64,000 nt of DNA from positions 396,010-460,009 of the forward strand of contig NZ_JAQTWL010000001.1 of assembly GCF_028689295.1 (NCBI RefSeq). The letters run 5' to 3'. Source of the DNA: Rhodoferax sp. (GTDB lineage: Bacteria > Pseudomonadota > Gammaproteobacteria > Burkholderiales > Burkholderiaceae_C). A program made the position numbers and the translations under genes. Of this stretch, positions 45,938 to 63,931 are shown in pieces; the first letter of the stretch is position 1, and each line of letters starts with the position of its first letter. The notes under the pieces are model-generated. The model was not told where the DNA came from. It saw nothing but the letters and a program-made list of their open reading frames with translations, and ran no database searches.

Positions 45938-46057
45938 GGGTAGTCGGGTTGGTTTCTAAAAAGCTGTGTTTACAGTACGGTGGCGCACAGACCTGACCTG
46001 GGATCTGCTCACATCATGCACACTCACGTACCTATTGATTGACTGGATTGGAATTTT

Positions 46058-46210
46058 ATGAACTTACACCTTGGTCTGACACCTTTGATCTCGCTCGTCG
46101 CCGGGATTCTCATTTTGGTCATGCCGAAACTCTTGAACTATATCGTGGCGATCTACCTGATCGCGATCGGTCTGATCGGTCTGTTTGGTACTGGATCGAT
46201 GCGAATTTAA
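46058..46210 (+). CDS. Small membrane protein, DUF3096 family
   Basis: A 50-residue protein, MNLHLGLTPLISLVAGILIL followed by VMPKLLNYIVAIYLIAIGLIGLFG, with two hydrophobic helices. This is the DUF3096 pattern, a tiny membrane protein seen in many proteobacteria. There is no strong Shine-Dalgarno in front. An overlapping 88-residue frame at 46039-46305 has no such resemblance and is rejected. Confidence 0.85.
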   Translation: MNLHLGLTPLISLVAGILILVMPKLLNYIVAIYLIAIGLIGLFGTGSMRI

Positions 46211-46408
46211 CGAGAGGCGCCGACGCGCCGATTTTGAACGATTTCAGGCTGCTCCCGGTAGCAGCTGTTTTTGATATGCCCTCCATTAACCCGAAGTTCG
46301 GTTGAGGGTTACGGTTTATTTCTTGATACTGAAGTTGCGCCTAAACTGTCAAGCCGTGCAGACCCCACTGGATTGCCCCGCATCAGCCCAACTCAACTCA
46401 ATGAAATC

Positions 46409-47227
46409 ATGACAGCAGTTCCCAGCGTTTCCATGATCGTCCCGATCCGCGCGCCCAGTGAGGCCAGACTTCGCAATCTGGCCTATGTTCTGGACTGGTA
46501 CCAGCAGATGTCCGACTGGGAACTGCTGGTGGTAGAGCAGGACAGCACCCCCAGACTTGACAGCACCGACTGGCCGTACACCTGCAAAAGAATCTATGTT
46601 GTGAACGATGGCCCGTTCAACAAGGGTTGGGGTTTGAACGTCGGGGCCAGGGCTGCGGGCAGCGATGTTCTTTTCTTCTGCGATGCAGATGTGTTGCTGG
46701 AACACAGCGCGTTGAAGACGGCAGCCAGCCTGTGCAGTCGCCGCGCCTTGGCCGTCAAGCCTTTTGACAGTTTGATTGACCTGAATTTGGCAGATACCCA
46801 GGTGATTTTGTCGCATGAAAAGAGCCCGGATTTTGGACGCACTGATGCGAGCCCCATGCGGGGCAACCGTGAAAAATTGTGTTTCTGTGGCGGCGCTTTC
46901 TTTATGCGCCGAAATTTGTACCGCGCGTTGGGCGGTTTTGATGAACGTTTTGTGGGCTGGGGCGCCGAAGACGATGCCATGACACTCAAGATGCAACGCA
47001 TGACGACCGAGTTGGCAGTGCTCGAAGGCCGTGCGGCCATTCACCTCTGGCATGAGCGTAGCGATGCCAGCACGTTTGCCAGTCCGAATTACCCCAACAA
47101 TCTGCGCATGCTCAAGGATTTGGCGGTTGCACCGGATGAATCCCTGCGTTTTCAATGCGATTTACAGCGCCAGATGATGGGTAGCCCGGGAAAATACGAG
47201 GTCGGAATGGGGCTAAACCCGTTATGA
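46409..47227 (+). CDS. GT-A glycosyltransferase with galactosyltransferase-like C-terminus
   Basis: A 272-residue predicted glycosyltransferase. The start at 46409 (MTAVPSVSMIVPIRAPSEARLRN) is used; the frame is open to 46271 but upstream residues look non-coding. Motifs: SMIVPIR strand, the metal-binding FFCDADVLL (about 100) and GGFDERFVGWGAEDDAMTLK (about 218), the C-terminal Glyco_transf_7C pattern that also occurs in chondroitin and capsule polymerases. It precedes the Tat-type leader protein by 45 bases and is probably co-transcribed. Sugar and acceptor are unknown. Confidence 0.86.
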   Translation: MTAVPSVSMIVPIRAPSEARLRNLAYVLDWYQQMSDWELLVVEQDSTPRLDSTDWPYTCKRIYVVNDGPFNKGWGLNVGARAAGSDVLFFCDADVLLEHSALKTAASLCSRRALAVKPFDSLIDLNLADTQVILSHEKSPDFGRTDASPMRGNREKLCFCGGAFFMRRNLYRALGGFDERFVGWGAEDDAMTLKMQRMTTELAVLEGRAAIHLWHERSDASTFASPNYPNNLRMLKDLAVAPDESLRFQCDLQRQMMGSPGKYEVGMGLNPL

Positions 47228-47272
47228 TATTCATGCGAACTCGCCAAAACCCCTTATGCAAAGGAACCCACC

Positions 47273-47836
47273 ATGAATACCCAGGATTCTGAAAAGTCGC
47301 AAAAAACAGTGTCTGCCCGTCGGCGCTTGTTTCAGATTTTGGCCGTTGGGGGTACTGCTGCGGTTGTTCTGCCCGAAAAATGGGTCAAGCCGGTGGTCGA
47401 TGCCGTGATTGTGCCGGCGCATGCTGCAGGCAGCGTGGTGCGTGTGCAAGGTATCTTTGGCAATCAAAGCGTGCAGCGTGTAGGTGCCCTTCATCTGTCC
47501 AGTCCGTTGGAACGGTTTGCGGGCATGCTGATAGGTTCAGCGCACGCGATCACTCTTCCGACTTGTGGATTAGCCAGCCCCAACAACACTTGCATTTCAT
47601 TTGTTATCCCGGCACCAGCGGATTCAACGGTTCAGGTGTTCGCCGATGGGACTCAAAATTCCACCGTTATTTATCCTAACAATGTGATCAGTGACGTGAC
47701 GGTTGGTAGCCTGAGTTTTTCCAGTCTGACCGCCAACTCGACGTATGTCAGCGGACTGATCGGCTCTCCCAACTGCGTCAGCGAAGCATTTTCCTTTCCA
47801 CGGCAGGCGAATAATGCCTGTATCGTGCCGTTCTAA
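47273..47836 (+). CDS. Small exported protein with twin-arginine-like leader
   Basis: A 187-residue protein of unknown function. The N-terminus has a twin-arginine-like motif (SARRRLFQILAVGGTAAVVLP) followed by the striking motif KWVKPVVDAVIVPAHA and then a beta-rich, serine/threonine- and asparagine-rich exported part with four to five cysteines (TCGLASPNNTCIS, NCVSEAF, NNACIVPF). The motif with W, KP and PAHA recurs in small leader-bearing proteins of many bacteria. AAGGAACCC stands near the start. It lies between glycosyltransferase genes and is a likely substrate of that group, but this is inference. It could instead be a stand-alone surface protein. Confidence 0.72.
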   Translation: MNTQDSEKSQKTVSARRRLFQILAVGGTAAVVLPEKWVKPVVDAVIVPAHAAGSVVRVQGIFGNQSVQRVGALHLSSPLERFAGMLIGSAHAITLPTCGLASPNNTCISFVIPAPADSTVQVFADGTQNSTVIYPNNVISDVTVGSLSFSSLTANSTYVSGLIGSPNCVSEAFSFPRQANNACIVPF

Positions 47837-48477
47837 AACTGGGAAACACCTTGGTGCCTTGTCGGAATTGCCGGATCCACAAAGATTCGGTAACCCATAT
47901 GACGCAGACGGTGGCAGACCCAGAAGTCCTCTGATAAATAGTCGCCATTCACCACGCCTACCTTGAAAACGTCGTAGTGCACCCGTGCCAAGGGGGTGCC
48001 TCTTGACAGCAGGCGCTGGTAGGTGTCGCCGGCCTGCCTGGCCTCTTCCACCAAATCATTGACAGCTTTTCTCGACAGCATAAGGGCAGCTGTGCCGATG
48101 CGATCCACCTCATGCAGAGCCCCGTGCTCACCCAAACACAAACCGACATTGAAGATACGTTCACCTCGCTCGTTAAACCCTTTTAGCGGCACTGCGGCAC
48201 CAATAACATCCACGTCATGTGCCAGCAAACGCTGCACGCCAGTGGCGGGCAGGTAAACATCACCATCAAGAAAAAGCAGGTGCGTGAACTCGGGTTCTTC
48301 ATGGAACTTGGACAAGATGGCGTTTCGGGCGCGTGTGATCAGGCTCTCGTTGCCAATGGCCGAGATCGTGAAATTGAGTTGCGAGCGGTAATACTCGGAA
48401 ATCGAATTGAGGTAGTCCAGGTGCACCATGCCGGCATAGGCTGGTGTGCCGATAAGAAGGTTGTACTTGGAGGACAT
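47833..48477 (-). CDS. Anp1-like glycosyltransferase
   Basis: A 214-residue protein similar to the Anp1/Mnn9 mannosyltransferase fold seen in bacterial glycan clusters. LLIGTPAYAGMVHLDYLNSI begins a Rossmann-like strand, ITRARNAILSKFHE and LLFLDGDVYLP are the donor-binding block with DGD as metal site, and SEDFWVCHRLRHMGYRIFVDP is the C-terminal acid block. It overlaps the stop of the Tat-leader gene by four bases in a convergent orientation and lies downstream of the large glycosyltransferase gene (63-base gap). Confidence 0.84.
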   Translation of the reverse strand: MSSKYNLLIGTPAYAGMVHLDYLNSISEYYRSQLNFTISAIGNESLITRARNAILSKFHEEPEFTHLLFLDGDVYLPATGVQRLLAHDVDVIGAAVPLKGFNERGERIFNVGLCLGEHGALHEVDRIGTAALMLSRKAVNDLVEEARQAGDTYQRLLSRGTPLARVHYDVFKVGVVNGDYLSEDFWVCHRLRHMGYRIFVDPAIPTRHQGVSQF

Positions 48478-48540
48478 GGTTACTTTTTCACTCGGGTTGA
48501 TTCAGCGGATTTTCCCATCGACAGGAAACCTGGCATTTTT

Positions 48541-50964
48541 CTATTGCGATGCATGGATGATTTCCAGGTTCGGCAGCCCCCATGATGCAATGCCCCGGTC
48601 TCTCGCGTGCATGGCGAAGCCCTCGGTGTCCAGATAGCCGCGGTAGCTGTAGTCCGGAAACAAAATGCTTTGGCGGTGCAAGCCTGCATCGACCAGCAAC
48701 ATGGTGCCCCCGACACTATCCAGCTCAACACAGTTCTGGCCCCGAAGCTCATCCAGGTACAACCTGCCAGTGCCGCGCGGCGGTTGAATGATGCCATCCA
48801 GCAGGTAACGCCATCCCATACCCCTGGCGCCGGGCTTGAACTTGAAGGTGTTGAGATCAAAGGTTTGACCGCCAGGCGTTTGCACGCAGTTGGGTACGAC
48901 GATGGGTTTTTGCGCCTCAAGTAATTGCGACAGACTGTCCGCGGGATAGTCAATGACATCCGCATCGATCCATAGAACCCATTCCTGCCCGCGGTCTGCC
49001 AGCTTGAACAGCCTGTTGCGGCACTTGGAGATCACGCTTCGGCGCGCAAACTGCTTCTCCGCTGCCCAGCGCTCACCCTCTATCCGCAAATTGAAGTGAT
49101 GACGATACAGGTCAAGGTTTGCAAAATCGCCGCGATGCCGGTGGGCGAGTTCCTGCAAGTGCTCATAAGTACCATCGTCGCTGTCACCTTCCAGGAAGGC
49201 CAGGCTCAGCTTGTCACGTGGGTAGTCAAGTCGGGTGGCCAAGTCAAAATAGCCAGGCAAAAAACGGGCGGCATTTTTGATCGGGGTCAGGATCAAAACA
49301 TGCGGTGTTGGCGCCAATTGGGCGGGTGCCCGCACCGCAGGAGCTGTCTTTTGTGTTGCCAGGCCTGGTTCTGCAGGGCTGCTCTCCCGGCTATCTGGGG
49401 GCGCTGCATGCCTCCGGGCTTCGGGAGGCTGCCTTGACTCGCTGTCTGCGGCTGGTTTGGCCGCATGCGCGTCAAGCGCCAACAGGTAACCGTTCAGGTC
49501 CAGTCCCTTGCCAAGTTCCTGCATCAGGCGCATGTATTCAAGGCCCGCAAACTGGCGGCTGGCAGATTGCCAGTGAGATTCGAAATGCTCCGACTCGAAG
49601 GTGTTGCCTTCATGCACCACATACACATAAAGACGGGACTGATCCAGCAGAACGACTCGCCCGGACTGCACGATTGCTTCGACTACGGGAGTATCTTCAC
49701 CACGGCGAAGCGCTGGATACAGCCCCATTTTGGATTTAAGGCACAGCATGGAGCCCTCCCACACCCGTTGGTTGGACTCTGCCAGGCGTTGTTGTTTGGG
49801 CCACCAGATCACCCAGCGGTTCAAAAAGCAGGCATCGGCCCGCGTGGCCAGCAGGGCGGTCATTTGCATGGCCAGACGTGCGGGGTCATACAGATCATCA
49901 TCGTCCCATTGGCAAACGTAGCTGCCACGCGACATCGCCACGGCCTGGTTGCGCAAGGCCCCCAGTGAGGAATCCCCATCGGGCAAATGCAGGTAACGGA
50001 TTCGCGGGTCAGCCAGGGCCTGGAGAAATAGCTCAAGCTCCCGATCACTGCCGTCATCAAGGATCACCAACTCGCACACTGGATAGCTTTGCGCCAGAAA
50101 GCCCTTGACGGCGCATACAGCCAGGGCAGACCGGTTGCGGGTGACCATCAGGCACGATACCAGGGGCGATGATTTGCTCAGGGGCGGGCAGTGCCGCGCA
50201 TGCAGCGTTGACTCCGCAATAACTCTGCCGCCTTCAACAACCGCCATGCCGGCCACGGCGCTGGGAAGCGGTGGCACCTCGAGCGAATCCCGCCACCAAG
50301 TGCCAGCCCAGTGGTGCATGGCAAGCGCACCATGGGTCACCTGGCGCCAGTTCTCCAGAGGAAACAACCGCCCCTCGGAGCAATCGTGCACATCGGCCGG
50401 ATAAAACATCTCGGGTGCTGTCACTTCTACCCGGGCTGCTCCCTGGTAGCTGTCCACCGCCCGGGTCAGCATAAAAGGCCCGGTGGCATCCAGTGGGCCG
50501 GACTGGTCGCGCGCCTCCACCATGCACTCGATCACATGATCCCAAAACGGGTGCTGGGGCGGTGAGGCCATCAACGCATTGCAGACCACTCTTTGCATGC
50601 CCTTGTGCAACACCTGATGCTCGCGAACATGCGATGCCGGCTCGAGACCTAATACAACGCTCTGCGTCTTCAGGATATCGTCAAAGGGTGCAAAGCACTC
50701 AAAGTCCAGATCGACATACAGCCCGCCAAAGTGCTTCAGCAAAAAATAACGTATCGCGTCGGCGCGGCAGATGGGGTTACGGTAAGCATCGAAGACGGAC
50801 AGAAACGCCGGGTAATGTTCTGCCAGGAAAGTACGGTTATCGGCATCGCTCCAGAGCCGATATTCCCAGCCGGGATGGTGCTTTAACCAGGTGTCGCGCA
50901 GATACACAAAGCGTCGCGGGATTTCTTTGGTTTTCCAGGTCTGGTGAATAATGTGGGGGATCAT
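48541..50964 (-). CDS. Three-domain glycosyltransferase
   Basis: An 807-residue protein with three transferase-like domains. Residues about 1-230 are a GT32-like (Och1/Gly_transf_sug) domain with HQTWKT at 7-12 and the DXD motif GLYVDLDFE at 81-89. Residues about 265-500 are a GT2 domain with LMVTRNRSAL at 272, ILDDGSD at 301 and QWDDDDLYD at 352-360. After a proline/alanine-rich linker (about 510-545), the third domain (LILTPIKNAARFL ... LWIDADVIDYPADSLS) is Anp1-like, as in the neighbouring small transferase. The ATG at 50964 (MIPHIIHQ) is chosen; the frame continues upstream without a good start. It could build a short glycan in one polypeptide; the acceptor is unknown. Confidence 0.88.
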   Translation of the reverse strand: MIPHIIHQTWKTKEIPRRFVYLRDTWLKHHPGWEYRLWSDADNRTFLAEHYPAFLSVFDAYRNPICRADAIRYFLLKHFGGLYVDLDFECFAPFDDILKTQSVVLGLEPASHVREHQVLHKGMQRVVCNALMASPPQHPFWDHVIECMVEARDQSGPLDATGPFMLTRAVDSYQGAARVEVTAPEMFYPADVHDCSEGRLFPLENWRQVTHGALAMHHWAGTWWRDSLEVPPLPSAVAGMAVVEGGRVIAESTLHARHCPPLSKSSPLVSCLMVTRNRSALAVCAVKGFLAQSYPVCELVILDDGSDRELELFLQALADPRIRYLHLPDGDSSLGALRNQAVAMSRGSYVCQWDDDDLYDPARLAMQMTALLATRADACFLNRWVIWWPKQQRLAESNQRVWEGSMLCLKSKMGLYPALRRGEDTPVVEAIVQSGRVVLLDQSRLYVYVVHEGNTFESEHFESHWQSASRQFAGLEYMRLMQELGKGLDLNGYLLALDAHAAKPAADSESRQPPEARRHAAPPDSRESSPAEPGLATQKTAPAVRAPAQLAPTPHVLILTPIKNAARFLPGYFDLATRLDYPRDKLSLAFLEGDSDDGTYEHLQELAHRHRGDFANLDLYRHHFNLRIEGERWAAEKQFARRSVISKCRNRLFKLADRGQEWVLWIDADVIDYPADSLSQLLEAQKPIVVPNCVQTPGGQTFDLNTFKFKPGARGMGWRYLLDGIIQPPRGTGRLYLDELRGQNCVELDSVGGTMLLVDAGLHRQSILFPDYSYRGYLDTEGFAMHARDRGIASWGLPNLEIIHASQ

Positions 50965-50974
50965 GGTGCAGGTT

Positions 50975-51020
50975 CCAGAGCGTGGGTGTCGAGCAGGATT
51001 TTGACACGCCCACACTCTGG
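50975..51020. promoter_or_regulatory. Imperfect inverted repeat in divergent promoter region
   Basis: CCAGAGCGTGGGTGTC (50975-50990) faces GACACGCCCACACTCTGG (51003-51020) across a 12-base gap, with two bases unmatched. It lies between the start of the large glycosyltransferase (50964, minus) and the nucleotidyltransferase (51124, plus), so it could be an operator or a leader hairpin for either. No regulator gene is adjacent. The repeat may have other meaning. Confidence 0.45.
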
Positions 51021-51123
51021 GCTGTGCAACGGTGCAAGCCATGCCAATCATCATGTATTCCTGAAGAGGCCAGCGGTTTTCGACTATTCTTCCCGCATCA
51101 AGACTACACCACTGAACGCCAGC

Positions 51124-52272
51124 ATGTCCGCCCATCACTACAGCCTGTTCGGCCTGATTTGTTCCCCCCAACTCAGCGAGCAACGGGCCCATCTTTTGTC
51201 CGACAAGATGGCGCAAGTGAGCGAATGGGCCATGGTGCCCAGGATGGCCGCCAGGCAACAGGTGGGCCCGCTGTTTTACTGGCATCTGAAGGCGTACGGC
51301 CTTGCCTACCCGCAACCGATTCGCCGGGCCATGGCCGCCATGTATGCGCGTCAAAAATCTGTCGCTGCCGTGCAGGCCGAGACCTTGGCTGAAATCATCA
51401 AAACCTTCGCGGATGCCGGTGTGGAGGCCGTGGTGATCAAGGGTGGCGCGGTGGCGCACATCGTCTATGCCGAGCCTGGGCTCAGACCCATGGAAGACCT
51501 CGATATTCTGGTCAACCCGCTGCAGGCAAACATCGCGCACGCCCTGTTGCTGGAACTGGGTTTTCATGCCCCGCTGCCGACCAGCCGCTACGACTTGCTG
51601 CAACATCACTTGCCGCTGGCCCAGCGCACCCGGGAGGACATCACTGTCAATGTTGAATTGCACACGACGGCTTTCAACTTGCTGATGCAAGACAAGCTGG
51701 CAATGGCCAATCTGCTGCGCCCGTTGCACGCCTATACCGTGTTGGGGCAAACCGTGCAGTCCCTCAATCCGGTGCAAATGCTGTGGATGCAGTATCTTGG
51801 CCTGCGCAAGCTGGCCGAGCCATTGCGATATATCCACCTGGCGGATCTGGTTGGCATGGCCGAGCGTCTGGTGAACGACATCGATTGGCCGCGTTTGCAT
51901 CACGACTACCCTGATATTTGGAATGCCTATGAGGCAATCCATGCGTTCTCACCCCTGAACAGCACCGTGTGTGAACGGCTTGGCCTGCAGCCTGATGCCC
52001 CGTCCAAACTTGCCTGCATCGGGGACGACTACCAGGGCTGGCCCCGGCAGGGGTTCAGTCACCTGCAAAGTGGCCGCGACAAGCGCCGCCTGATGCGCCA
52101 GTCCTTGTGTCCGCCGGAGTGGTGGGCCAGGCTGGTGTACGGGGTGCGCACACCCCGCAGCATGATGCGTATTTTGTTTTACCATCACCCGGCCAACTTC
52201 TTTCAGCAAGGGGTGCGCCGCCTGTACCTCGGCCCCGTAAATTCGCTGGGCTTTTTCAAAGGCCCGACTTGA
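51124..52272 (+). CDS. Nucleotidyltransferase family protein (NTP_transf_5)
   Basis: A 382-residue predicted nucleotidyltransferase of the polymerase-beta fold. The active-site region is GVEAVVIKGGAVAHIVYAE with the KGG at 106-108, and RPMEDLDILV with D125 and D127 as metal ligands; the third acid may be in NVELHT near 180. The C-terminal part is helical. It begins the plus-strand trio with the PqqD-like and HPr-kinase-like genes (24 bases to the next). Family members are found in such trios and in lasso-peptide-like clusters, but no target is known. The ATG is preceded by ACGCCAGC, with no strong Shine-Dalgarno. Confidence 0.87.
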   Translation: MSAHHYSLFGLICSPQLSEQRAHLLSDKMAQVSEWAMVPRMAARQQVGPLFYWHLKAYGLAYPQPIRRAMAAMYARQKSVAAVQAETLAEIIKTFADAGVEAVVIKGGAVAHIVYAEPGLRPMEDLDILVNPLQANIAHALLLELGFHAPLPTSRYDLLQHHLPLAQRTREDITVNVELHTTAFNLLMQDKLAMANLLRPLHAYTVLGQTVQSLNPVQMLWMQYLGLRKLAEPLRYIHLADLVGMAERLVNDIDWPRLHHDYPDIWNAYEAIHAFSPLNSTVCERLGLQPDAPSKLACIGDDYQGWPRQGFSHLQSGRDKRRLMRQSLCPPEWWARLVYGVRTPRSMMRILFYHHPANFFQQGVRRLYLGPVNSLGFFKGPT

Positions 52273-52296
52273 CCAACTCAACCGCAGGAACGCACG

Positions 52297-52575
52297 ATGA
52301 ACCTACTCGATAACAGCTGGCGCCCCAAAGATGGACTGGAGGTAGAAGATATCGGCGACGAAGTTCTCATCTATCTCACGGGTGACGACAAAACTCTTTA
52401 TTTGAACGACACCGCGGCCCTCGTCTGGCGGCTATGTGACGGTACGCGAACCGGCACCGAGATTGTCAAACTGCTGATCGAAGCCTACCCGGACGCTGAG
52501 CCAGAGATTCAATCTCAAGTTCTGGAGGCGCTCTCGGATTTCATGACGCGGGGCATTGTTGAAAGTGGCCCTTGA
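52297..52575 (+). CDS. PqqD-like peptide chaperone (HPr-rel-A system)
   Basis: A 92-residue protein with the PqqD winged-helix fold: an initial beta hairpin (DIGDEVLIYLTGDDKTLYLNDTAALVWRLCDG) then helices. PqqD-type domains bind the leader of a precursor peptide and present it to a modifying enzyme. The combination with the HPr-kinase-like gene (overlapping by 20 bases) and nucleotidyltransferase corresponds to my recollection of the HPr-rel-A family PqqD. No short precursor peptide is obvious beside it. The role is inferred from family and context. Confidence 0.82.
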   Translation: MNLLDNSWRPKDGLEVEDIGDEVLIYLTGDDKTLYLNDTAALVWRLCDGTRTGTEIVKLLIEAYPDAEPEIQSQVLEALSDFMTRGIVESGP

Positions 52576-53404
52576 TTTGAAGTACCGCGTGGGGGTCGCG
52601 TTCGCTGGCAATGAACTTCTGATTCGTACTGACAGCCATTTGGTTGAAAAAATGGCAGCATCTGTGTTCCAACATCATGTGTCCCCTTCAGTCGATCAAA
52701 ACTGCGCAGCGATCGATGTTGTGCAGCAAGAAGGTGCCGGCGACTTTCTTCTGATGGTCGAAGGGCAACTTGCCGGGATTGCCAGTAGTGTTGCCGAGTT
52801 GCCGGTCATGCTGATGCAACTTGGACAACGCCTGCTTGTATTCAAGGAAGCCCGTCAAGCCATGTTGCATGCAGCCGTGCTGGCCAAAAATGGGCGCGGT
52901 TTCTTGTTTCCGGCTGTCGCCGGTTCGGGCAAAACCACCTTGACAGCCTGGCTGCTAGGCCAAGGCTACGGTCTTTTGTCTGATGAATTGACATCGATTG
53001 GAGAGGGCGATGACCTGGATGGCTTTACCCGTCCGCTCAACATAAAACCAGGCAGTCGGGCGCTGGTGGCTGGCTTTGACTGGATGGGTGCGGCACTGGC
53101 GCGGTCCGTCCTTTCGAGTGACGTCACGCTTGTTTCATGGGATCGGTCCCCGGTGAAAAACCTGTCCGCCTCCATCATCGTTTTCCCCTCCTATGCGGCT
53201 GGGAGCCCTTGCGAAGTTGAAAGCTTGAGCCAAGGGCCTTGCGCCAGAAATCTGATGGGTAGTTTGTTGAACGCCCGCAACCTGCCCAAGCATGGCCTTT
53301 CTTTTGCCATGCATCTTGCCGGCACATGCCCCAGCTACCGGGTAAGGTATTCCCGTCTTCAGGATGTCTCCACTTGGTTGGATCAAATTTTGGCCGACAC
53401 CTGA
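52556..53404 (+). CDS. HprK-related kinase A
   Basis: A 282-residue protein with a P-loop in the middle (FLFPAVAGSGKTTLTAWLLG, near residue 120) and the following SDELTSIGEGDDLDGFTRPLNIKPG, as in the HPr kinase/phosphorylase core. The N-terminal region differs from true HprK, and the HPr-binding signature is not evident, so this is a paralogous kinase, not the catabolite regulator. The first codon is a TTG within the pqqD frame; a GTG at 52565 is an alternative. It overlaps the pqqD-like gene by 20 bases, which suggests tightly coupled expression. Natural substrate unknown. Confidence 0.82.
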   Translation: MLKVALDLKYRVGVAFAGNELLIRTDSHLVEKMAASVFQHHVSPSVDQNCAAIDVVQQEGAGDFLLMVEGQLAGIASSVAELPVMLMQLGQRLLVFKEARQAMLHAAVLAKNGRGFLFPAVAGSGKTTLTAWLLGQGYGLLSDELTSIGEGDDLDGFTRPLNIKPGSRALVAGFDWMGAALARSVLSSDVTLVSWDRSPVKNLSASIIVFPSYAAGSPCEVESLSQGPCARNLMGSLLNARNLPKHGLSFAMHLAGTCPSYRVRYSRLQDVSTWLDQILADT

Positions 53405-53443
53405 AAGGATAAACTCAAGCCGGAATCACAACCCGAACGCTTG

Positions 53444-54190
53444 ATGCCCACGCCGCCCGCTCCCCCTACGCCGCAGCCTCAGGGCCTGACCAAAGACGCC
53501 GCTGTGGCAAAGGCCGGGCGCTGGGGCTCGGCAACCGAGATTTCGCGGCGCGTTGGAATCTTGATCGCCGTCCTGCTCCTCACCGGGCTGCTGGCCTTGT
53601 CCGACACCGTTCACCGCCAGATCGTCGCCGGCCTTGCGCTGGCCGAACCGGTCATCGCCCAGCACCCTGTTCTGGGCGCCCTGATTTTCATGGGGCTGGC
53701 CGCTCTCTCGGCCATGCTGGTGTTCTTCTCCGGCGTGCTGCTCGTCCCCATTGGCGTGCAAGCCTGGGGCGAGACGGGTTGTTTCCTCATGTTATGGAGC
53801 GGCTGGTGTCTGGGTGGACTCGTCACCTACGCCATTGGTCGCCGCCTGAAACGCCCCGCCGTGCAGCGCATGTTGTCCGGTGGAATGATCGACCGCTACG
53901 AAAACCGAATTCCCGAAGGAGGCTCCTTCGTCACCGCCGTGCTGGTGCAACTGGCGGTTCCGTCAGACGTTTCGGGCTACTTCTTCGGGCTTCTCGGCTA
54001 CCCGTTTCGCGTCTATTTGGGGGCGCTGATGCTCACTGAAATTCCGTACGCGCTGGGTACGGTTTTTCTCGGTAGCGCCTTTATCCAAAAACAATATGTG
54101 CTGCTGCTCACGGCTTCCGGTGTGGCGCTTGTCGCACTGGGCCTGGCCTGGCTGCATCGATGGCGGCACAAGCGGGCATCCTCCTCATAA
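53444..54190 (+). CDS. VTT-domain (TVP38/DedA-like) membrane protein
   Basis: A 248-residue membrane protein with the VTT fold (TVP38/TMEM64-like). After a proline-rich cytoplasmic N-terminus (MPTPPAPPTPQPQGLTK), several helices and two re-entrant loops follow, including GVLLVPIGVQAWGETG and the glycine-rich VLVQLAVPSDVSGYFFGLLGYPFRVYL. The normal proline motif of the family is F-R-x-x-P-G; here it is replaced by LAVPSDVSGY, a small deviation. The ATG at 53444 follows a TTG. It lies 39 bases after the HprK-related gene and may be in the same transcript. Many VTT proteins move phospholipids or carrier lipids. Confidence 0.85.
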   Translation: MPTPPAPPTPQPQGLTKDAAVAKAGRWGSATEISRRVGILIAVLLLTGLLALSDTVHRQIVAGLALAEPVIAQHPVLGALIFMGLAALSAMLVFFSGVLLVPIGVQAWGETGCFLMLWSGWCLGGLVTYAIGRRLKRPAVQRMLSGGMIDRYENRIPEGGSFVTAVLVQLAVPSDVSGYFFGLLGYPFRVYLGALMLTEIPYALGTVFLGSAFIQKQYVLLLTASGVALVALGLAWLHRWRHKRASSS

Positions 54191-54284
54191 CCGACCGCCG
54201 CCACGGACTGTTATGGCCTATGGCAAATCAGTGGCAAGGTGATGATTCGGTTGCCGCTTTTTTATTTCAGAAAGGAACTGGGCA

Positions 54285-55091
54285 ATGAAATACTTCCGAA
54301 CGATGCTGCGCTTCATCATGGCAGTCTTGATGACGTGCGCAGTTCCTGCTTGTGCAGCAGTCTGGGAGGATGCGACCGGACCTTATGCAACAATAGTTAT
54401 CGGTGATACGGGACCCGAAAACACGTACTACATCTATCGTCCCCAGACGCTGAGATCTAACGCGCATCCCGTCGCTGTATTTTGTGTTGGGTCAGGCTCA
54501 CATCCCAGGAATTACGAAGCCTTGCTCACGTCCCTGGCGTCACATGGAGTCATAGTAATTGCCAGCACAGATCCGTATCAGTGGGATGGCGTCAAAGCCA
54601 GTGCTGGTGTCAATTGGCTTATGGCGCAAAACCAGACAGGTAAAAGTGACTACTATCAAAAACTCATTCCATCCAAGGTGCTTGCCATCGGGCATTCTGT
54701 GGGTGGAAATGGAGCCGTGTTGGCCTCCATCAAGAATTCAAAAATAACGAGCCTTCTTCTCTACGCACCTTCCTTGGAACTTGCAAATTCACCTGACCTA
54801 TTGGTGCCCACTTTCTACATCGCAGGTTCTCTCGACACCACGATACCGCCTCATCTTGTAAAGGCCAGATATCAGGACGAAAAAAAAGCGCCTGGTTGGT
54901 ATGGAGAAAATACCAATCAAGGTCACATCGGATTCGCAAGAAACCCATCGGTTCAATACTACACGAGGGCATGGGTATACACCCAGCTCTTTGGCGATTC
55001 GGGGACCGCAAGAGGATCCTTCTACGGACCCGATTGGACGTTCAAGAACGCAGCAACTTGGCGCGACCAGTTGAAGAACAACAGTGAATAG
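54285..55091 (+). CDS. Exported alpha/beta hydrolase
   Basis: A 268-residue hydrolase with signal peptide (MKYFRTMLRFIMAVLMTCAVPACA). The nucleophile elbow GHSVGGNG (about residue 133) and the segment SLDTTIPPHL with the acid residue, and the late NQGHIGF histidine form a complete catalytic triad. The family is near the chlorophyllase/PET-hydrolase-like and dienelactone hydrolase groups. The gene is A/T-richer than its neighbours and has ATA and AGA codons, which hints at recent transfer. Substrate unknown. Confidence 0.84.
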   Translation: MKYFRTMLRFIMAVLMTCAVPACAAVWEDATGPYATIVIGDTGPENTYYIYRPQTLRSNAHPVAVFCVGSGSHPRNYEALLTSLASHGVIVIASTDPYQWDGVKASAGVNWLMAQNQTGKSDYYQKLIPSKVLAIGHSVGGNGAVLASIKNSKITSLLLYAPSLELANSPDLLVPTFYIAGSLDTTIPPHLVKARYQDEKKAPGWYGENTNQGHIGFARNPSVQYYTRAWVYTQLFGDSGTARGSFYGPDWTFKNAATWRDQLKNNSE

Positions 55092-55154
55092 TGATTTTTG
55101 CAGTCGAATGGCTGTCACTCTTACGGCAACTCAAGCCGAGGTTTGAGTTACCGG

Positions 55155-55472
55155 CTATGCAAAACGATTTGGACTTTTGCTTTCCTGCACGCACCAATAA
55201 ATGAGCAGTATCCAGCCAATAACGGGAATGATGGCCCAAAGTTGAAACCAACCGCTTCTATCTGTGTCGTGGAGCCGTCTTGTGACGACTGCGAAGTAGG
55301 GTAAGAGCGTGGCTACTGAAAAGACCGCTGACAGCTTGTCACTGATGATGCCTAGCGCGATTGTCGTAATGAAAACAAATAACACCCACCACCATAGTTC
55401 GGACTTTGTCGCGCAGCCCTTGAAGTCAGCATATTTTGAGAAGCATGTGCGAATTGATTCGGTAAAGGTCAT
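55155..55472 (-). CDS. DUF805 membrane protein
   Basis: A 105-residue protein starting MTFTESIRTCFSKYADFKGCA with the DUF805 hallmark: SELWWWVLFVFITTIALGI then TRRLHDTDRSGWFQLWAIIPVIGWILLIYW. It has three or four transmembrane helices. The ATG at 55472 is chosen; the frame is open to 55532. DUF805 proteins are found widely with unknown role. It is convergent with the hydrolase gene. Confidence 0.9.
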   Translation of the reverse strand: MTFTESIRTCFSKYADFKGCATKSELWWWVLFVFITTIALGIISDKLSAVFSVATLLPYFAVVTRRLHDTDRSGWFQLWAIIPVIGWILLIYWCVQESKSPNRFA

Positions 55473-55802
55473 AGCACCCTCGATATTTGAGATGGTGCCC
55501 GATGTTAGCGCGTAAGGTTTGACTTTGCTCACGCACGCAATGGTGGACCCGTTGGTTGGGCCACTGCTGGGGCATGCCAGCTGGCAGGCTTACAGAAGCT
55601 CGGTGCGCTAGCCGTTAATTGACTACTGTCCGCAATGCCCAGGTGCTTGGCTTGACCGGGGGGGAACTCGACAAGCTGATCTAAGTGAAATGTTTGACTG
55701 ATCGAGTTGGGTTCGCTCGTCGCCGGTTGTAGTGAACAGCTCGCCGGTGAGGCACAAAAGGCCATCGACCATCTGCAGTGAATCGTTGTTGTGTCAAATT
55801 GG
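55473..55802. other. Non-coding stretch, no gene seen
   Basis: About 330 bases between the DUF805 gene and the VapC-like gene. The only open frame (55529-55765 minus, 78 codons) has no family resemblance and no good start. I see no convincing repeat or terminator. Confidence 0.6.
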
Positions 55803-56216
55803 CTAAGCCAAGAACGGATCGATCAGCTTCGTGCCCGTACCTGCAAAGTCCGCTACGTTGCGTGTTACCACCGTCATACCATGCTCCAAAGCCGTGGCAG
55901 CAATCATGGCATCACGTTTAGACTTCGGATCTGGCACATGCATCGCCGCGCATAACGTGGCTGTGGCTCCTGAGAATGGCAATATACGATCTGCAAAGTT
56001 TGCCTTTACCCCATTCAGCCAGACGCGCAATGCACTGCCTTGTGGTGGTATGCGGCGCTCCAGCGCCAAAACCCCCTTTTCCAGTTCCAGTATGCTGATG
56101 GCGGAAATAAACAAATGGCTGACCGGCTTGTCCGAAGCCCATGCACGCACTTCCAGAGACTGATTCGGTTTTCCGTGACGCAACTCCGAGATGACGTTCG
56201 TATCCAAAACATACAT
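55803..56216 (-). CDS. VapC-like PIN-domain toxin
   Basis: A 137-residue PIN-domain protein, predicted to be an RNA-cleaving toxin. The acidic active site is complete: LDTNVISELR (D near residue 4), SILELEKG (E near 44), and KSKRDAMIAATALEHGM, with VVTRNVADF at the end. The ATG at 56216 is used; a TTG at 56231 would add five residues. The antitoxin gene ends 11 bases upstream. The pair is a VapBC-type module whose antitoxin is of the Phd/YefM class. Confidence 0.9.
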   Translation of the reverse strand: MYVLDTNVISELRHGKPNQSLEVRAWASDKPVSHLFISAISILELEKGVLALERRIPPQGSALRVWLNGVKANFADRILPFSGATATLCAAMHVPDPKSKRDAMIAATALEHGMTVVTRNVADFAGTGTKLIDPFLA

Positions 56217-56227
56217 ATATTCTGGCC

Positions 56228-56488
56228 TCAAAGCAGATCAGCGACACTTATTTCTACCCGTACTTTCTTTGGTTCGAACTCTATGCCTTCGCCACCCGGA
56301 ATCGAATCCATCAAGTCCAAAAGTGATACGTCCTGCTTTCCCGTGAGCTCGTAATAGTCTTGAATTTTGAGCAAAGCAAACGCCGGTCGCCCCCTGTCGG
56401 TGATGAACACAGGACCTTGCGCTGCTGCCCGTTTGGCTGCGCCAACATCTCGGGTGAACTCACGACTTGAACAGGTGTGCACGCTCAT
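56228..56488 (-). CDS. Phd/YefM-family antitoxin
   Basis: An 86-residue antitoxin, with the Phd/YefM DNA-binding domain visible as SSREFTRDVGAAKRAAAQGPVFITDRGRPAFALLKIQDYYEL. The C-terminal acidic tail ending VRVEISVADLL binds the toxin. It lies just before the PIN-toxin gene. It is expected to repress the pair's promoter in the upstream region (AT-rich, with tgtttgtatgttatgaca at about 56511). Confidence 0.89.
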   Translation of the reverse strand: MSVHTCSSREFTRDVGAAKRAAAQGPVFITDRGRPAFALLKIQDYYELTGKQDVSLLDLMDSIPGGEGIEFEPKKVRVEISVADLL

Positions 56489-56833
56489 CTTAATTCTCCT
56501 GATCGGTTAATGTTTGTATGTTATGACATTCTCAGAAAAAATCAAGGAAAAGCCCTACAGTCATCCAATTGTCGGCTGCTTTCCTGCCCGGAGTTGCACC
56601 GGGCATCCGGAAAGCTGGCTGTACTGAACGGCTCTCATTGAAACCCAAAGGGCGAAGACTGAGGCTGAGCTATTCAGGCGGTAAAAAGCTGATGTAGCGT
56701 GAGCGGCACCCAATCTTAAGGTTTGCTTCAGTCAAACCCTTGACTTTGCAGTTTCGTCGCCACAAACGGTTGCTTTTTTTTGCGCTTTCTGGACAATGCT
56801 CCAAGCGCTCCACCTGCAACGGATGACACTCAG
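56489..56833. other. Intergenic region with likely divergent promoters
   Basis: About 345 bases without a supportable gene, between the divergent antitoxin and bacteriohemerythrin genes. It includes an AT-rich segment near 56510-56550 next to the antitoxin. Frames that overlap it run opposite to the hemerythrin gene and show no family resemblance. Confidence 0.55.
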
Positions 56834-57478
56834 ATGATGAACACGCACCGGGTTTATCCCGCTTGGCTCTACAACTCCTTGGCTTATGTTTACTGCTTTG
56901 CCGGGATACTTACTTTTGTTATGCTTCCGGGCGCCATGGGGGCCGTCAGCGGTGGCATGCTGATACTGGCCGGTGCGGCGGTATGGGTACTTCGCTACAA
57001 GTACCGCAAAGAGTTCACTCAATACGAGAAACACCTTGCCAATGAATCTGTACTGCATTCACAAAACCTACCACCAGGAGGTCTGATCCAGATGTCCTGG
57101 AGCAAAAGGTACGAATGCGGTCACGATTTGATTGATGGGCAACACCGCCGCTTGTTTGGCCTTGCCAATGAGACCATAGAGGCCATTCTTGAAAACCAAC
57201 CCAATCCATCTGCTGGCACCCTTCTAAGGAAAACGATTGAGCACATGAGCCAACATTTTTCCACCGAGGAGTTCATTCTGGCAGAGGTGAAAGACCCCCA
57301 CCTGGTTGAGCATCAAGCGCAACATCAAACGCTCATGGACAAGGCAACGACACTCTTTCAGCAACACCAAAGGGGCGAACTGGACCATCGCACACTCGTG
57401 TCATTCCTGGCAGTCGACGTCATCGCCGGGCATATTTTGAAGGAAGAATTTCCATGGCCTCGGGTTCAACCAAGCTGA
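56834..57478 (+). CDS. Membrane-anchored bacteriohemerythrin
   Basis: A 214-residue protein with two N-terminal hydrophobic helices (SLAYVYCFAGILTFVMLPGAM and GGMLILAGAAVWVLRY) and a hemerythrin domain. The di-iron ligands are visible as HDLIDGQHRRLFGL, HMSQHFSTEEFIL, HLVEHQAQHQ and HILKEEFPWP. In the last motif the usual HxxxxD ligand is a glutamate, so the iron site may be altered. The ATG at 56834 is used, another is at 56837; a TTG at 56780 is in frame. Such proteins bind oxygen or sense it at the membrane. A second soluble hemerythrin is at 63148. Confidence 0.86.
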   Translation: MMNTHRVYPAWLYNSLAYVYCFAGILTFVMLPGAMGAVSGGMLILAGAAVWVLRYKYRKEFTQYEKHLANESVLHSQNLPPGGLIQMSWSKRYECGHDLIDGQHRRLFGLANETIEAILENQPNPSAGTLLRKTIEHMSQHFSTEEFILAEVKDPHLVEHQAQHQTLMDKATTLFQQHQRGELDHRTLVSFLAVDVIAGHILKEEFPWPRVQPS

Positions 57479-57678
57479 CCTGAAGCGTCCCGGTCAAGCG
57501 AAATTTCCTCGCTTTAATTCGCGGCTTCGATCAGTGGCCCAAAGCCACCCACCAATGCCAGCTTCCGGGAAGTTCAATGGTCACCTCCACTTTCTCAAAG
57601 ACCCGATCAACCCTGAACGTGTGGAAGCGGCTATGCGGGTTCAGGCTGGGCTTGGCGGCGACTGGCCGTCTGAGCCCG
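57479..57678. other. Stretch without a supported gene
   Basis: Two hundred bases between the hemerythrin gene and the first 165-bp repeat. AAGCGA and TCGCTTT near 57498-57520 could form a weak terminator for the hemerythrin gene. A 67-codon frame runs from 57534 into the repeat and has no family resemblance. Confidence 0.5.
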
Positions 57679-57843
57679 CCTGTTGGTACCGACCTCGGAT
57701 TGAGCCAGTTTCACTTGGTATGCCGACGCGGCGGTGAGCCAAGACTTTCCGACGGGAGACAGCGCCAGCGTTGAGGACTTGGGCTCGACGCGCGGCTCAA
57801 CGAAATGTCGGCGCGGTGGCTCAGTCGGCGATCGGCACTAACA
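57679..57843 (+). repeat. 165-bp repeat, copy 1 (left boundary of chromate island)
   Basis: Identical over 165 bases to the copy at 61107-61271, in the same direction. Its ends form an imperfect inverted repeat: TGTTGGTACCGACC at the left and the complement TGTTAGTGCCGATC at the right match in about 20 of 27 bases. The interior also folds (GCCGACGCGGCGG with CCGCGCCGACA). No transposase is encoded. This looks like a non-autonomous mobile unit with the chromate genes between the two copies. Confidence 0.88.
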
Positions 57844-57909
57844 CGGGGGCTTAGAAAGTTCGACCACTCGCTCCAACGCAACGGATTCAGCAGTTAAAAC
57901 TGATTTCTT

Positions 57910-58707
57910 CTAGGCCGCTACATCTTTGGGGGGCCATTTGTGGGTTTCGCTTTGACAGTCCCGGCACCATGCATAGAGAGCGTCATACATGACCTTGCCA
58001 TGTCGAAGCATTTCATGATCATTGGCAAAGATTTGTGACAGGCCGAGTGACAGCGCATACAGCCCCGCTGACTGTGGGGTGAGGTCGAGTCGGGAGGTGT
58101 CTGCGCCGCGCACGATCAAAGCAAGCTGTTGGAGTGCTGGATCATGCAGACCATACTTGTCCAGGAACGCATCGAAACTGCACAGCTCGCCAATGTGGGA
58201 GAGTTCAACATCGGGAATGTCATAGGGAATTGCGCCGGTTTCGTGCGCCACTCGGGGTACATCGATGGCCGGCACATAGAGGAATTCGGCCTGTGGGTCG
58301 ATGAACCGGGCCACCAGCCACGGGCATGCAATGCGATCAATTTTTGGGCGCTCGCGTGTGACCCATTTTGTGCTGCTGACGCTTGCGATTTCTACCATAG
58401 GCAGGCCGACCGTTTGCCATTCAGAAAAACCACCTTCCAAATACCTTGCATCCTTGCCCATGGCACGCAAAGCAGCGGTGAGGCCTTGGCTGATTTCGTG
58501 TCCGTGAACACAAAAAAACACCACCGGCTCTGACAAGGCGGCCACTTCGTCTTTCCAGTTCAGCCATTGTGCGGGGTCGCGCCAAATTGATTTGGCGATG
58601 GTCATGCCAGAGGCTTGGCGTGCACTTTCTCTGCGGACATCGATGAGAACTGGCTGCTTGGGCTCCATCAGGCAGCCGGACAAGGTGGCAACTGAAATAG
58701 CCTTCAT
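57910..58707 (-). CDS. Rhodanese domain fused to ChrB C-terminal domain
   Basis: A 265-residue protein. Residues 1 to about 110 are a rhodanese domain with the active-site cysteine in FFCVHGHEIS, and the rest matches the C-terminal ChrB/chromate-resistance domain (RIACPWLVARFIDPQAEFLYVPA). Such fusions are found in chromate-resistance clusters and probably help protect against chromate or its reduction products. The ATG at 58707 (MKAISVATLSGCLM) is used. It ends the operon chrB-chrA-this gene. Specific reaction unknown. Confidence 0.87.
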   Translation of the reverse strand: MKAISVATLSGCLMEPKQPVLIDVRRESARQASGMTIAKSIWRDPAQWLNWKDEVAALSEPVVFFCVHGHEISQGLTAALRAMGKDARYLEGGFSEWQTVGLPMVEIASVSSTKWVTRERPKIDRIACPWLVARFIDPQAEFLYVPAIDVPRVAHETGAIPYDIPDVELSHIGELCSFDAFLDKYGLHDPALQQLALIVRGADTSRLDLTPQSAGLYALSLGLSQIFANDHEMLRHGKVMYDALYAWCRDCQSETHKWPPKDVAA

Positions 58708-58725
58708 GGTGTTCTCCAGCACAGG

Positions 58726-60090
58726 TTAAAAAAGTCGTGTGAGCAAGCCCGCCACCGCACTGGCGGCGATGACATGGATCACATTGCGCTTGAAGCGAAA
58801 CAAGGCGACGCCGGCACCCAGTGCGATCAGTGCGGAGACCCAATCAAAACTCCCGCCAAACCCCTTGGGCCATAAGACGTGGTAGGCAAAGAAAAGGGCC
58901 AGATTCAGAATCACGCCCCCCACGGCCGCGGTGATGGCTGTCAACGGTGCGGTGAACTTGAGGTCACCGTGGGTGCTTTCCACCAAAGGGCCGCCCGCCA
59001 GGATGAACAAAAACGAGGGTAAAAAGGTGAACCACGTCACCAAACTGGCCGCCACGGCCCCCGCCAGAAACAGGGCATCCGGGCCGAACAAGGCCTTGAC
59101 ATAACCACCCACGAAGCCGACAAAAGCCACCACCATGATGAGTGGCCCCGGTGTTGTTTCCCCCAGGGCAAGGCCATCAATCATTTGTGTCGCTGTGAGC
59201 CATCCATAATGACTCACCGCTCCCTGGTACACATAGGGCAGCACAGCATATGCACCGCCAAACGTCAGCAACGCGGCTTTGGTGAAGAACCAACCCATCT
59301 GTGTCAGCGGGTGGCCCCAGCCGTAGCTTGTGGTCAGCAATCCCATTGGCACGAGCCAAAGCAAGGCACCCATCCCGATCACTTGTGATAGTCGAAGCCA
59401 ATGAAATTTGGCATGTTCCGGCGTGGGTGTGTGATCGTCGATGAGCGCTGGGCCAAAGGACTTGTCGGCCTTGCCATGTCCGCCCCCGGACTTGAACTTG
59501 TCGGGTGCGATCCGACCGCCGACATAACCTACCAAGGCAGCCGCCGCAACGATGGCTGGAAATGGGATGTTGGCGACAAAAATGGCGACGAAAGAGGCCG
59601 CTGCAATTCCCCACAACCAGTTGTTCCTGAGCGCGCGGGAGCCAATGCGGTGTGCCGCCTGAATCACGATGGCCGTCACAGCCGGCTTGATGCCATAGAA
59701 CAAGCCCGCAACCAGCGGCATTTCACCGAAGGCGATGTACACCCACGACAGCACGATCAGTATCAAGAGTGAAGGAAGAACAAACAATGCGCCGGCCACG
59801 ATGCCACCCCAGGTCCGGTGCATCAGCCAGCCGATATAGGTGGCCAACTGCTGTGCTTCCGGGCCGGGGAGCATCATGCAATAGTTCAGTGCATGAAGGA
59901 AACGCTGTTCAGAAATCCAACGCCGGTTTTCCACCAGTTCCTGGTGCATGATCGAAATTTGCCCGGCTGGCCCACCGAAACTGATGAAACCCAGCTTGAG
60001 CCAGAACGCAAATGCCTGCCAGAAGCTCACCGGCTGGGGTGGGGACGCCGATGGCACGGCCTCATGCGTCACGGGTTGGTTCGTCTTCAT
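58726..60090 (-). CDS. chrA: Chromate transporter ChrA (long, two-domain)
   Basis: A 454-residue inner-membrane chromate efflux protein of the long CHR family with two homologous halves of about six helices each. The halves show the motif FISFGGPAGQISIMHQELVENRRW near residue 36 and LTFGGAYAVLPYVYQGAV near 275, and both contain the GPLIMVVAFVGFVGGY and PGPEAQQLATYIGW signatures. It overlaps chrB by four bases, and its stop is 18 bases before the rhodanese gene. It exports chromate driven by the proton gradient, as established for ChrA of Cupriavidus and Pseudomonas. Confidence 0.95.
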   Translation of the reverse strand: MKTNQPVTHEAVPSASPPQPVSFWQAFAFWLKLGFISFGGPAGQISIMHQELVENRRWISEQRFLHALNYCMMLPGPEAQQLATYIGWLMHRTWGGIVAGALFVLPSLLILIVLSWVYIAFGEMPLVAGLFYGIKPAVTAIVIQAAHRIGSRALRNNWLWGIAAASFVAIFVANIPFPAIVAAAALVGYVGGRIAPDKFKSGGGHGKADKSFGPALIDDHTPTPEHAKFHWLRLSQVIGMGALLWLVPMGLLTTSYGWGHPLTQMGWFFTKAALLTFGGAYAVLPYVYQGAVSHYGWLTATQMIDGLALGETTPGPLIMVVAFVGFVGGYVKALFGPDALFLAGAVAASLVTWFTFLPSFLFILAGGPLVESTHGDLKFTAPLTAITAAVGGVILNLALFFAYHVLWPKGFGGSFDWVSALIALGAGVALFRFKRNVIHVIAASAVAGLLTRLF

Positions 60091-61022: not shown

Positions 61023-61031
61023 GAACTGAAG

Positions 61032-61047
61032 TCTACATTATTGTAGA
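61032..61047. promoter_or_regulatory. Palindromic operator candidate upstream of chrB
   Basis: TCTACATTATTGTAGA is a perfect six-base inverted repeat with a four-base centre. It lies directly in front of the chrB start, in an AT-rich stretch (61030-61080) where the chr promoter must be. ATTCA and TGAAT just beyond (61048-61070) form another loose pair. A ChrB-binding site is the simplest reading. Confidence 0.6.
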
Positions 61048-61106
61048 ATTCATGTCAATATATTTTGAATGTCTATGTGCGAATCAAAAAACCGTTTTGT
61101 TGGCAC

Positions 61107-61271
61107 CCTGTTGGTACCGACCTCGGATTGAGCCAGTTTCACTTGGTATGCCGACGCGGCGGTGAGCCAAGACTTTCCGACGGGAGACAGCGCCAGCGTT
61201 GAGGACTTGGGCTCGACGCGCGGCTCAACGAAATGTCGGCGCGGTGGCTCAGTCGGCGATCGGCACTAACA
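61107..61271 (+). repeat. 165-bp repeat, copy 2 (right boundary of chromate island)
   Basis: Identical to 57679-57843. It is preceded by GTTGGCACC, which partly repeats the element's own first bases, and is followed at once by the reading frame of a truncated protease. The inner-facing distance to copy 1 is 3.3 kb and holds only the chromate genes. Confidence 0.88.
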
Positions 61272-63914: not shown

Positions 63915-63931
63915 CATTCACTAGCGTATAT

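Follow-up and report, generated by a model that had tools for sequence, protein, structure and literature searches.

The 64,000-nucleotide stretch of DNA analysed here, in the following called the window, comes from the Rhodoferax sp. assembly GCF_028689295.1 (contig NZ_JAQTWL010000001.1, positions 396,010 to 460,009; genome G000, contig C20 in our numbering). Between positions 46409 and 53404 it carries a locus of seven genes, in which three glycosyltransferase (GT) genes and the gene for a small exported protein stand next to a co-directional trio encoding an NTP_transf_5 nucleotidyltransferase, a PqqD-type recognition element of the kind used for ribosomally synthesised and post-translationally modified peptides (RiPPs), and an HprK-like kinase (Table 1). 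The cassette proteins were scanned with Pfam against the family cut-offs, and NCBI family models were used for the TIGR entries. An initial annotation, made from the sequence letters, had described this arrangement, and the family scans and the positions of the open reading frames (ORFs) agree with it throughout, including the positions of the trio genes and the 20-base overlap of the PqqD and kinase frames at 52556-52575.

Table 1 Features of the seven-gene locus in the window.
Feature	Position	Strand	Basis
Glycosyltransferase, GT2-like with galactosyltransferase-type C-terminal domain (GT2/GT7C-type), 272 aa	46409-47227	+	PF10111 44.3 bits, PF02709 37.1 bits, each above cut-off
Exported leader-bearing protein, predicted substrate, 187 aa	47273-47836	+	Leader conservation, homologues
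Leader, residues 15-54 of the exported protein, ARRRLFQILAVGGTAAVVLPEKWVKPVVDAVIVPAHAAGS	47315-47434	+	Conservation in alignment
Internal AHA motif (FAGMLIGSAHA, residues 82-92), possibly a further site of processing or recognition	47516-47548	+	Recurrent pattern
Predicted all-beta mature domain, residues 105-180 of the exported protein	47585-47812	+	AlphaFold2
Small Anp1-like glycosyltransferase, 214 aa, DXD-type motif LDGDV	47833-48477	-	Weak PF03452 match, 18.4 bits, below cut-off 28.8
Three-domain glycosyltransferase GT32-GT2-Anp1, 807 aa	48541-50964	-	PF04488, PF00535, PF03452, each above cut-off
NTP_transf_5 nucleotidyltransferase, 382 aa	51124-52272	+	PF14907 105.6 bits (cut-off 31.2)
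PqqD-type RiPP recognition element, 92 aa	52297-52575	+	PF05402 49.8 bits (cut-off 23.4)
HprK-like kinase, 282 aa	52556-53404	+	TIGR04352 94.2 bits (cut-off 200)

By sequence reading the catalytic motifs are intact: the kinase has the P-loop GSGKTT, the histidine (MLHAA) and SDE, the nucleotidyltransferase has KGG...EDLD, and the GT domains have DXD-type motifs. The kinase gave no Pfam match; in weak alignments (E 0.16-0.26) its His, P-loop Lys and Asp align with those of the HPr kinases 3tqf and 1ko7, and in one of them (E 0.16) it carries a Glu where the HPr kinases have a second Asp. Among solved structures the PqqD profile matched PqqD 5sxy (E 6e-5) and, weakly, the lasso peptide B1 proteins 6jx3 (0.05) and 5v1u (0.14), but the unrelated repeat protein 8prs was matched as well (2e-4).

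The exported protein has no Pfam match at E <= 0.01 and 43 homologues at that same level, the named ones among its close relatives being from Rhodoferax sp. and Comamonadaceae, and 25 of the homologues were aligned with the window protein (alignment A1, 26 sequences). It is clear from this alignment that the N-terminus, ARRRLFQ..LPEKWVKPVVDAVIVPAHA, is strongly conserved and that the remainder is hypervariable, the mean majority identity being 0.92 over residues 15-54 and 0.49 over residues 93-187; residues 55-79, between two conserved boxes, are also variable (mean identity 0.58). When the window protein is compared with its counterpart at another locus, L035, the leaders are identical in 40 of 40 residues at a pS of 0.63 (63% of the synonymous sites differ) and a pN of 0, and the mature parts are 48% identical with a dN of 0.45. 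The leader and mature part are 88% and 47% identical to those of locus L036, and 68% and 34% identical to those of locus L037 (Azoarcus). AlphaFold2 models the leader as disordered and the following part as confidently all-beta, with block means of the predicted local distance difference test below 50 for residues 1-50, 80 for residues 101-110 and 86-94 for residues 111-180. In its sequence variation the protein thus looks like a RiPP precursor, having the selection profile of a conserved leader and a variable core. Four pairs of homologues (P0026/P0027, P0025/P0029, P0028/P0033 and P0012/P0021), the two members of each having a longest contig of equal length, suggest tandem copies.

Recurrence of the transferases and the exported protein beside the trio in other genomes had been set beforehand as a test of the annotation, and such recurrence was found. 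A protein-alignment scan of GTDB species genomes led to the three loci just mentioned: all seven genes are present in L036 (genome G001) and in L037, from an Azoarcus metagenome-assembled genome, and four of them, the fourth interrupted by the contig end, in the 5.3-kb contig L035. Identities to the window versions at L035-L037 are 55-70% for the 46409 GT, 71-86% for the small Anp1-like GT and 57-68% for the GT32-GT2-Anp1 protein; the NTP_transf_5 protein is 71% identical in L036 and 52% in L037, and at the other cassette loci the exported protein is 39-58% and the kinase 43-59% identical. The PqqD and kinase frames also overlap in L036 (15136-15414 and 15398-16249) and touch in L037 (PqqD to 8175; the kinase start, which is uncertain, taken at 8168). 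The order in L037 is rearranged to NTP_transf_5, PqqD, HprK, GT and exported protein on one strand. The outer flanks differ among the three complete copies, the window having a methyltransferase gene further left and a VTT protein gene on the right; the flanks of L036 we take to be a dinB-like ORF and a MaoC/phosphotransacetylase-like ORF, and those of L037 are presumably an FkbM-like and a TonB-receptor-like ORF. Since the seven genes stand together in two further genomes, their linkage goes beyond chance, and the complete set between different outer flanks points to a functional cassette that moves. When 148 relative genomes were searched, the exported protein was found in two, G000 and G001, and among HprK matches below the cut-off these two genomes also rank highest, with 93.6 and 80.9 bits, followed by 48.4.

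The leader recurs on other proteins. When a leader profile (A2) was run against 369 genomes of the class, 25 strong copies (E ~1e-6 or better) turned up in seven of them, and 36 other genomes with weak matches only (best E 0.0015) were dropped as chance. These seven genomes came up again with a broader profile (A6), which had 28 copies at E <= 1.1e-5 (G000 1, G226 1, G270 2, G290 5, G341 3, G403 10 and G498 6); as it was built from the leaders of the genomes it then found, what it adds independently is that no further genome among the 369 was matched, save two partial matches that were dropped. Of 398 genomes drawn from the phylum, G000 had the leader and the 397 others were without it. The 27 other leader proteins, in six other genomes of the class, differ widely in length and content. 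The broad set of leaders has the consensus RR-x-x-L ... W-x-KP-V-x-N/D-x-V-x-LPAHAQTS, in which R6, W26, P29, P37, H39 and A40 (numbered by the first row) are invariant in 22 rows. Some of the 27 proteins have Thr-rich stretches or Thr runs (at loci L097, L101 and L102), and the median Ser+Thr content is 22% in the 27 mature parts compared to 13% in 336 control frames, which were mechanical open frames of at least 150 aa from the same loci and not all genes.

A second recurring element is the internal motif (L/F)..(L/I/F)(I/V).xAHA, resembling LL(D)xxIPxAHA, which is present in 24 of the 26 A1 sequences, in 6 of the 27 other leader proteins and in 6 of the 336 control frames, a pattern that was written after examples had been seen and counted in mechanical controls. 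It occurs three times in a 537-aa frame at locus L112, and shuffling of the 27 leader proteins gave a mean of 0.018 proteins with the motif and a maximum of one in 2000 shuffles. The motif could mark another place of processing or recognition; the structure model is ambiguous about cutting there.

Within approximately 10 kb of the 27 other leader genes, searched by profiles, trio genes or PqqD-GT fusions lie near five. At locus L097 (G270), where two leader proteins contain Thr runs, there is an HprK-GT2-GT25 fusion of 802 aa together with a PqqD protein, an NTP_transf_5 protein and a GT2 that ends in a PqqD-like domain (19.3 bits, below the cut-off of 23.4). At L098 (G341) a PqqD-GT2-GT25 fusion begins about 115 bases after the leader frame and extends to the contig end. 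Locus L101 (G403), from another family than the window, repeats the GT set around a Thr-rich leader protein, with homologues of the 46409 GT (35% identity), the small Anp1-like GT (51%) and the GT32, and it also has a GT32-PqqD-GT2-GT25 fusion. In L112 (G403) the 537-aa leader frame is followed on the same strand by the NTP_transf_5, PqqD and HprK genes. The trio of genomes G290 and G498 is located elsewhere (L142 and L140) than their leader genes, which fits a trio that acts in trans and equally the lack of any link; the gammaproteobacterial family f192 may thus have a single trio that acts in trans on several substrates scattered over the genome.

At the level of whole genomes, the leader was found in 7 of the 369 genomes of the class, an HprK of at least 94 bits against the cassette profile (a threshold chosen after the scores were seen, at the gap from 94.7 to 85.5) in 8, and both in 6, giving a Fisher p of 6e-11 by genome and 1e-7 by genus (four common to five and five in 272 genera). 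The profiles include the window's own proteins, so that G000 matches by construction; excluding the own genome or genus gives p values of 2e-9 by genome, 5e-6 by genus and 2e-3 for any HprK match. The association is weaker (p 5e-4) when HprK is defined as any match at E <= 1e-3, which is the case for 80 of the 369 genomes. Of the 21 genomes of family f192, 17 have the leader and 13 an HprK of at least 89 bits, all 13 being among those 17 (p 0.012), and in two others (G890 and G898) the leader is absent and the HprK match weaker. The independent positives are few, the leader genera of the class sample numbering five, and many genomes are fragmented. The proposal that the exported protein is a leader-bearing substrate, made at the outset for 47273-47836, is strengthened, as judged from sequence, by the conservation of the leader, by its presence elsewhere, in five of 27 cases near the trio or PqqD-GT fusions, and by this co-occurrence.

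Collectively, the linkage of the seven genes, the conserved leader, the intact catalytic motifs, the leader genes near fusions, the Ser- and Thr-rich mature parts of the other leader proteins and the co-occurrence of leader and kinase lead us to the reading that the cassette is, on balance, probably a RiPP-like pathway for protein decoration, in which proteins with the leader would be phosphorylated and glycosylated under the guidance of PqqD before they are exported. In the cytosol, PqqD would recognise and bind the exported protein by its conserved N-terminal leader. A hydroxyl side chain would receive a phosphate from the HprK-like kinase, NTP_transf_5 would attach a sugar (or a nucleotide) there, and the glycan would be the work of the three GTs; the product would then be exported, by the twin-arginine translocation (Tat) or the Sec pathway, and presumably cut after PAHA. 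The chemistry has a precedent in lasso peptide tailoring by the PadeK and PsmK kinases and the PsmN nucleotidyltransferase.

Several observations weigh against this decoration pathway, in addition to the broader profile built from the leaders it found, the threshold chosen afterwards, the self-matching of G000 and the weaker association with any HprK match described above. For 22 of the 27 other leader genes there was no trio gene or PqqD domain within approximately 10 kb, some of these flanks being shortened by contig ends. The leader is present without this HprK in G226 of the class sample and in G888, G892, G897 and G899 of f192, the clearest exception being G897 (98% complete, with four leader copies and no HprK), and the HprK is present in G446 and G271, where no leader was found. 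The window genome has a second PqqD gene, on contig C36 at about 24700-25960 (locus L189, about 9200-10458; 45.8 bits). The window leader did not match the Tat model TIGR01409 at E <= 0.1, the window substrate is not Thr-rich, and a strand modelled at residues 60-63, within the predicted beta domain, disfavours a cut at the internal AHA motif. Finally, the modification of the exported protein is a prediction from the genes.

A broader version of the decoration pathway, which we put forward only tentatively, is a general, leader-addressed phospho-glycosylation of exported proteins, with W-x-KP-V-x-x-V-x-LPAHA as a tag on many unrelated proteins, up to ten per genome. One recognition element would read the dispersed tag, the kinase would prime, the nucleotidyltransferase-GT set would build glycans in the cytosol, and the tag, together with the internal AHA copies in modular proteins, would be cut on export. 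If this were true, it would be a bacterial counterpart of the O-glycosylation of the secretory pathway, addressed by a RiPP-type leader rather than a sequon.

The strongest competing explanation, although we consider it unlikely, is that the trio phosphorylates or polyphosphorylates the leader protein, with nucleotidylation by the NTP_transf_5 protein, and that the GTs only make a surface polysaccharide to which the protein later binds, the system then tagging proteins by phosphorylation and not by glycosylation. Related kinases do polyphosphorylate lasso precursors, and whether PsmN transfers a sugar or a nucleotide is unsettled, as far as the accessible text of the reviews goes (PMC9266682, PMC7533575). 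Inspection by eye also revealed no GT beside the trio in three f192 genomes (L112, L140 and L142). However, the HprK-GT2-GT25 protein of L097 and the PqqD-GT fusions of L097, L098 and L101 connect GTs with the recognition of the leader, at L101 this GT set stands around the leader gene where the trio is absent, and GT genes are present in three of three complete cassette copies.

It is less probable still that the conserved N-terminus is nothing but an unusual export signal, with neighbours that modify something else and a linkage that reflects a shared surface-glycan island. The leader does combine a Tat-like RR, a hydrophobic stretch and PAHA with an AxA end, and one leader protein of L097 passes TIGR01409 (21.7 bits, cut-off 16.7), the leader protein of L102 giving no match to this model at E <= 0.01; most f192 leader genes are also located away from the trio. 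Export signals are ordinarily the least conserved part of a protein, whereas the W-x-KP-V-x-x-V-x-LPAHA block is conserved at the protein level with synonymous sites near saturation, is restricted to the seven genomes of the class sample and absent from the 397 others of the phylum draw, and co-occurs with this HprK subfamily. That cuts after PAHA and the internal AHA free a peptide of about 41 residues (52-92) as the true product of a cryptic small-peptide RiPP, with the beta domain as a carrier or immunity part, would suit the recurrence of the internal motif and the variable residues between the two conserved boxes, but we regard it as improbable, as 21 of the 27 other leader proteins are without the motif, the pattern was fitted to sequences already seen, the aligners group the modelled strand at 60-63 with a sheet at 108-178, and the Pfam scan gave no protease among the cassette genes.

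Returning to the decoration of leader-bearing proteins, other genes near leader copies could belong to further tailoring. GMC oxidoreductase ORFs adjoin leader genes at two unrelated loci (L112, 11705-13877, where there is also a gluconate 2-dehydrogenase subunit 3 match, and L099, 7043-9147), and perhaps oxidise the glycan or the protein. A gene of the tubulin-tyrosine-ligase family (PF03133) lies directly upstream of the leader protein gene at L100 (8544-9659), and an amino-acid ligase might act as an additional tailoring step. Locus L097 has, at 148-2015, an aKG-HExxH peptide beta-hydroxylase (TIGR04267, 93 bits) and an ORF that appears ATP-grasp-like by eye and is without a family match, which may add hydroxylation or ligation to the glycosylation set. 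Neither trio nor PqqD genes are near the leaders of L096 (G226), which has GT2, epimerase, sugar-nucleotidyltransferase-type and sugar methyltransferase-type genes beside it, and L102, which has a GT2 protein downstream.

As to the surroundings of the cassette and its paralogues, the G+C content is 51-59% across positions 46001-64000 of the window, within the cassette and beyond, and mostly 60-67% further left. To the right of the flanking VTT gene lies an alpha/beta hydrolase at 54285-55091 (PETase-type match PF12740, 35.0 bits, cut-off 28), and a small ORF pair at 55803-56488 resembles by eye what we take to be a PIN-domain toxin and a Phd-type antitoxin. The second PqqD gene on C36 adjoins, by eye, HprK-like and radical-SAM-like ORFs and exopolysaccharide-type ORFs, as another kinase/PqqD system. 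Genome G001, of the same genus as the window, has five sub-cut-off HprK-like matches on contigs C50, C13, C160 and C267, and only that on C267 is in the cassette.

If the decoration pathway is real, it would be a little-known bacterial route for decorating surface proteins, and if exported proteins are modified as a whole under the direction of the leader, recognition of the RiPP type would reach further beyond small natural products, to the decoration of surface proteins, with the leader as a possible portable tag for enzyme-directed glycosylation. A literature search that covered few subscription journals found no paper describing the leader string or the system under its names, and no assigned role was found in the literature for the HprK/PqqD/NTP_transf_5 set outside lasso peptides; this set, too, is now given a concrete substrate family and leader.

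The initial annotation had equated the trio with the HPr-rel-A system, which does not hold at the curated thresholds: the kinase and PqqD proteins are of the same superfamilies as those of HPr-rel-A but lie far outside both families (94.2 bits, or 93.6 in the genome search, against the TIGR04352 cut-off of 200, and 14.7 bits against the TIGR04353 cut-off of 35). Nor are PAHA-motif proteins a general neighbour of HPr-rel-A genes, as had been expected. Canonical kinases above the cut-off are present in 32 of the 148 relative genomes, and in a sample of 20 of these 32 loci, with flanks of up to 10 kb that are shorter at contig ends, the leader was absent from all 20, apart from one chance string (VHLPAHG in L045); by our profiles an NTP_transf_5-like ORF stands beside five of the 20 and a PqqD match beside one. 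Two GT2 proteins are weakly similar to known peptide glycosyltransferases, the 46409 GT to mycofactocin MftF (33.2 bits, cut-off 280) and the GT2-PqqD protein of L097 to the SunS type (27.1 bits, cut-off 350), and these scores are far below the family cut-offs, with only the GT2 fold in common.

A difference from known RiPP pathways had also been claimed, and this stands in part. Features of an RRE-dependent (RiPP recognition element-dependent) RiPP are present in the cassette, namely a PqqD/RRE protein and a precursor with a conserved leader and a variable core, and the kinase, PqqD and nucleotidyltransferase set has a precedent in lasso clusters. In the accessible text of reviews on paeninodin (PadeK) and pseudomycoidin (PsmK/PsmN), such clusters have an HPr-kinase-type gene, a PqqD-type B1 protein that binds the leader, a nucleotidyltransferase and one ribosomal precursor, whose C-terminal Ser is phosphorylated by the kinase, PsmN being required for the hexoses on that phosphate (PMC9266682, PMC7533575). 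Genes of the same kinds are present in the cassette; in lasso clusters they are optional tailoring parts that are not defining alone. The predicted substrate differs in being a 187-aa exported protein with a beta domain and not a short precursor, and there are several dedicated GTs. Among the cassette genes, to which the Pfam search for the cyclase was limited, there was no match to the B2 transglutaminase-like leader protease (PF13471) or to the asparagine-synthetase-like lasso cyclase, and the only PF13471 match of the genome is below the cut-off (22.6 bits), has an internal stop and lies more than 300 kb away on the same contig. With neither protease nor cyclase matched, the cassette would operate in the manner of lasso tailoring and yet be no lasso cluster.

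Two further groups of RiPP systems are close in other respects. RiPPs modified by multinuclear non-heme iron-dependent oxidative enzymes (MNIOs), such as bufferins and oxazolins, have Sec-signal precursors that are modified before export, some of them long and protein-like, and the bufferins are thereby, as described in the accessible text, an earlier example of RiPP precursors in which an export signal is retained (PMC12452194). No MNIO (DUF692) Pfam match was found among the cassette genes, which differ in their kinase, nucleotidyltransferase and GT chemistry and in recognition predicted to be via the PqqD protein. RRE-Finder and its 2025 update list PqqD/RRE domains fused to PF00535 glycosyltransferases, the same type of fusion as in L097, L098 and L101; their accessible text lists new fusions without naming precursors for the GT fusions, and gives probable precursors for three of nine example clusters (PMC7470986, PMC12710340). 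Here, in contrast, such fusions, which these surveys list as new, are connected with a concrete family of substrates that has a defined leader.

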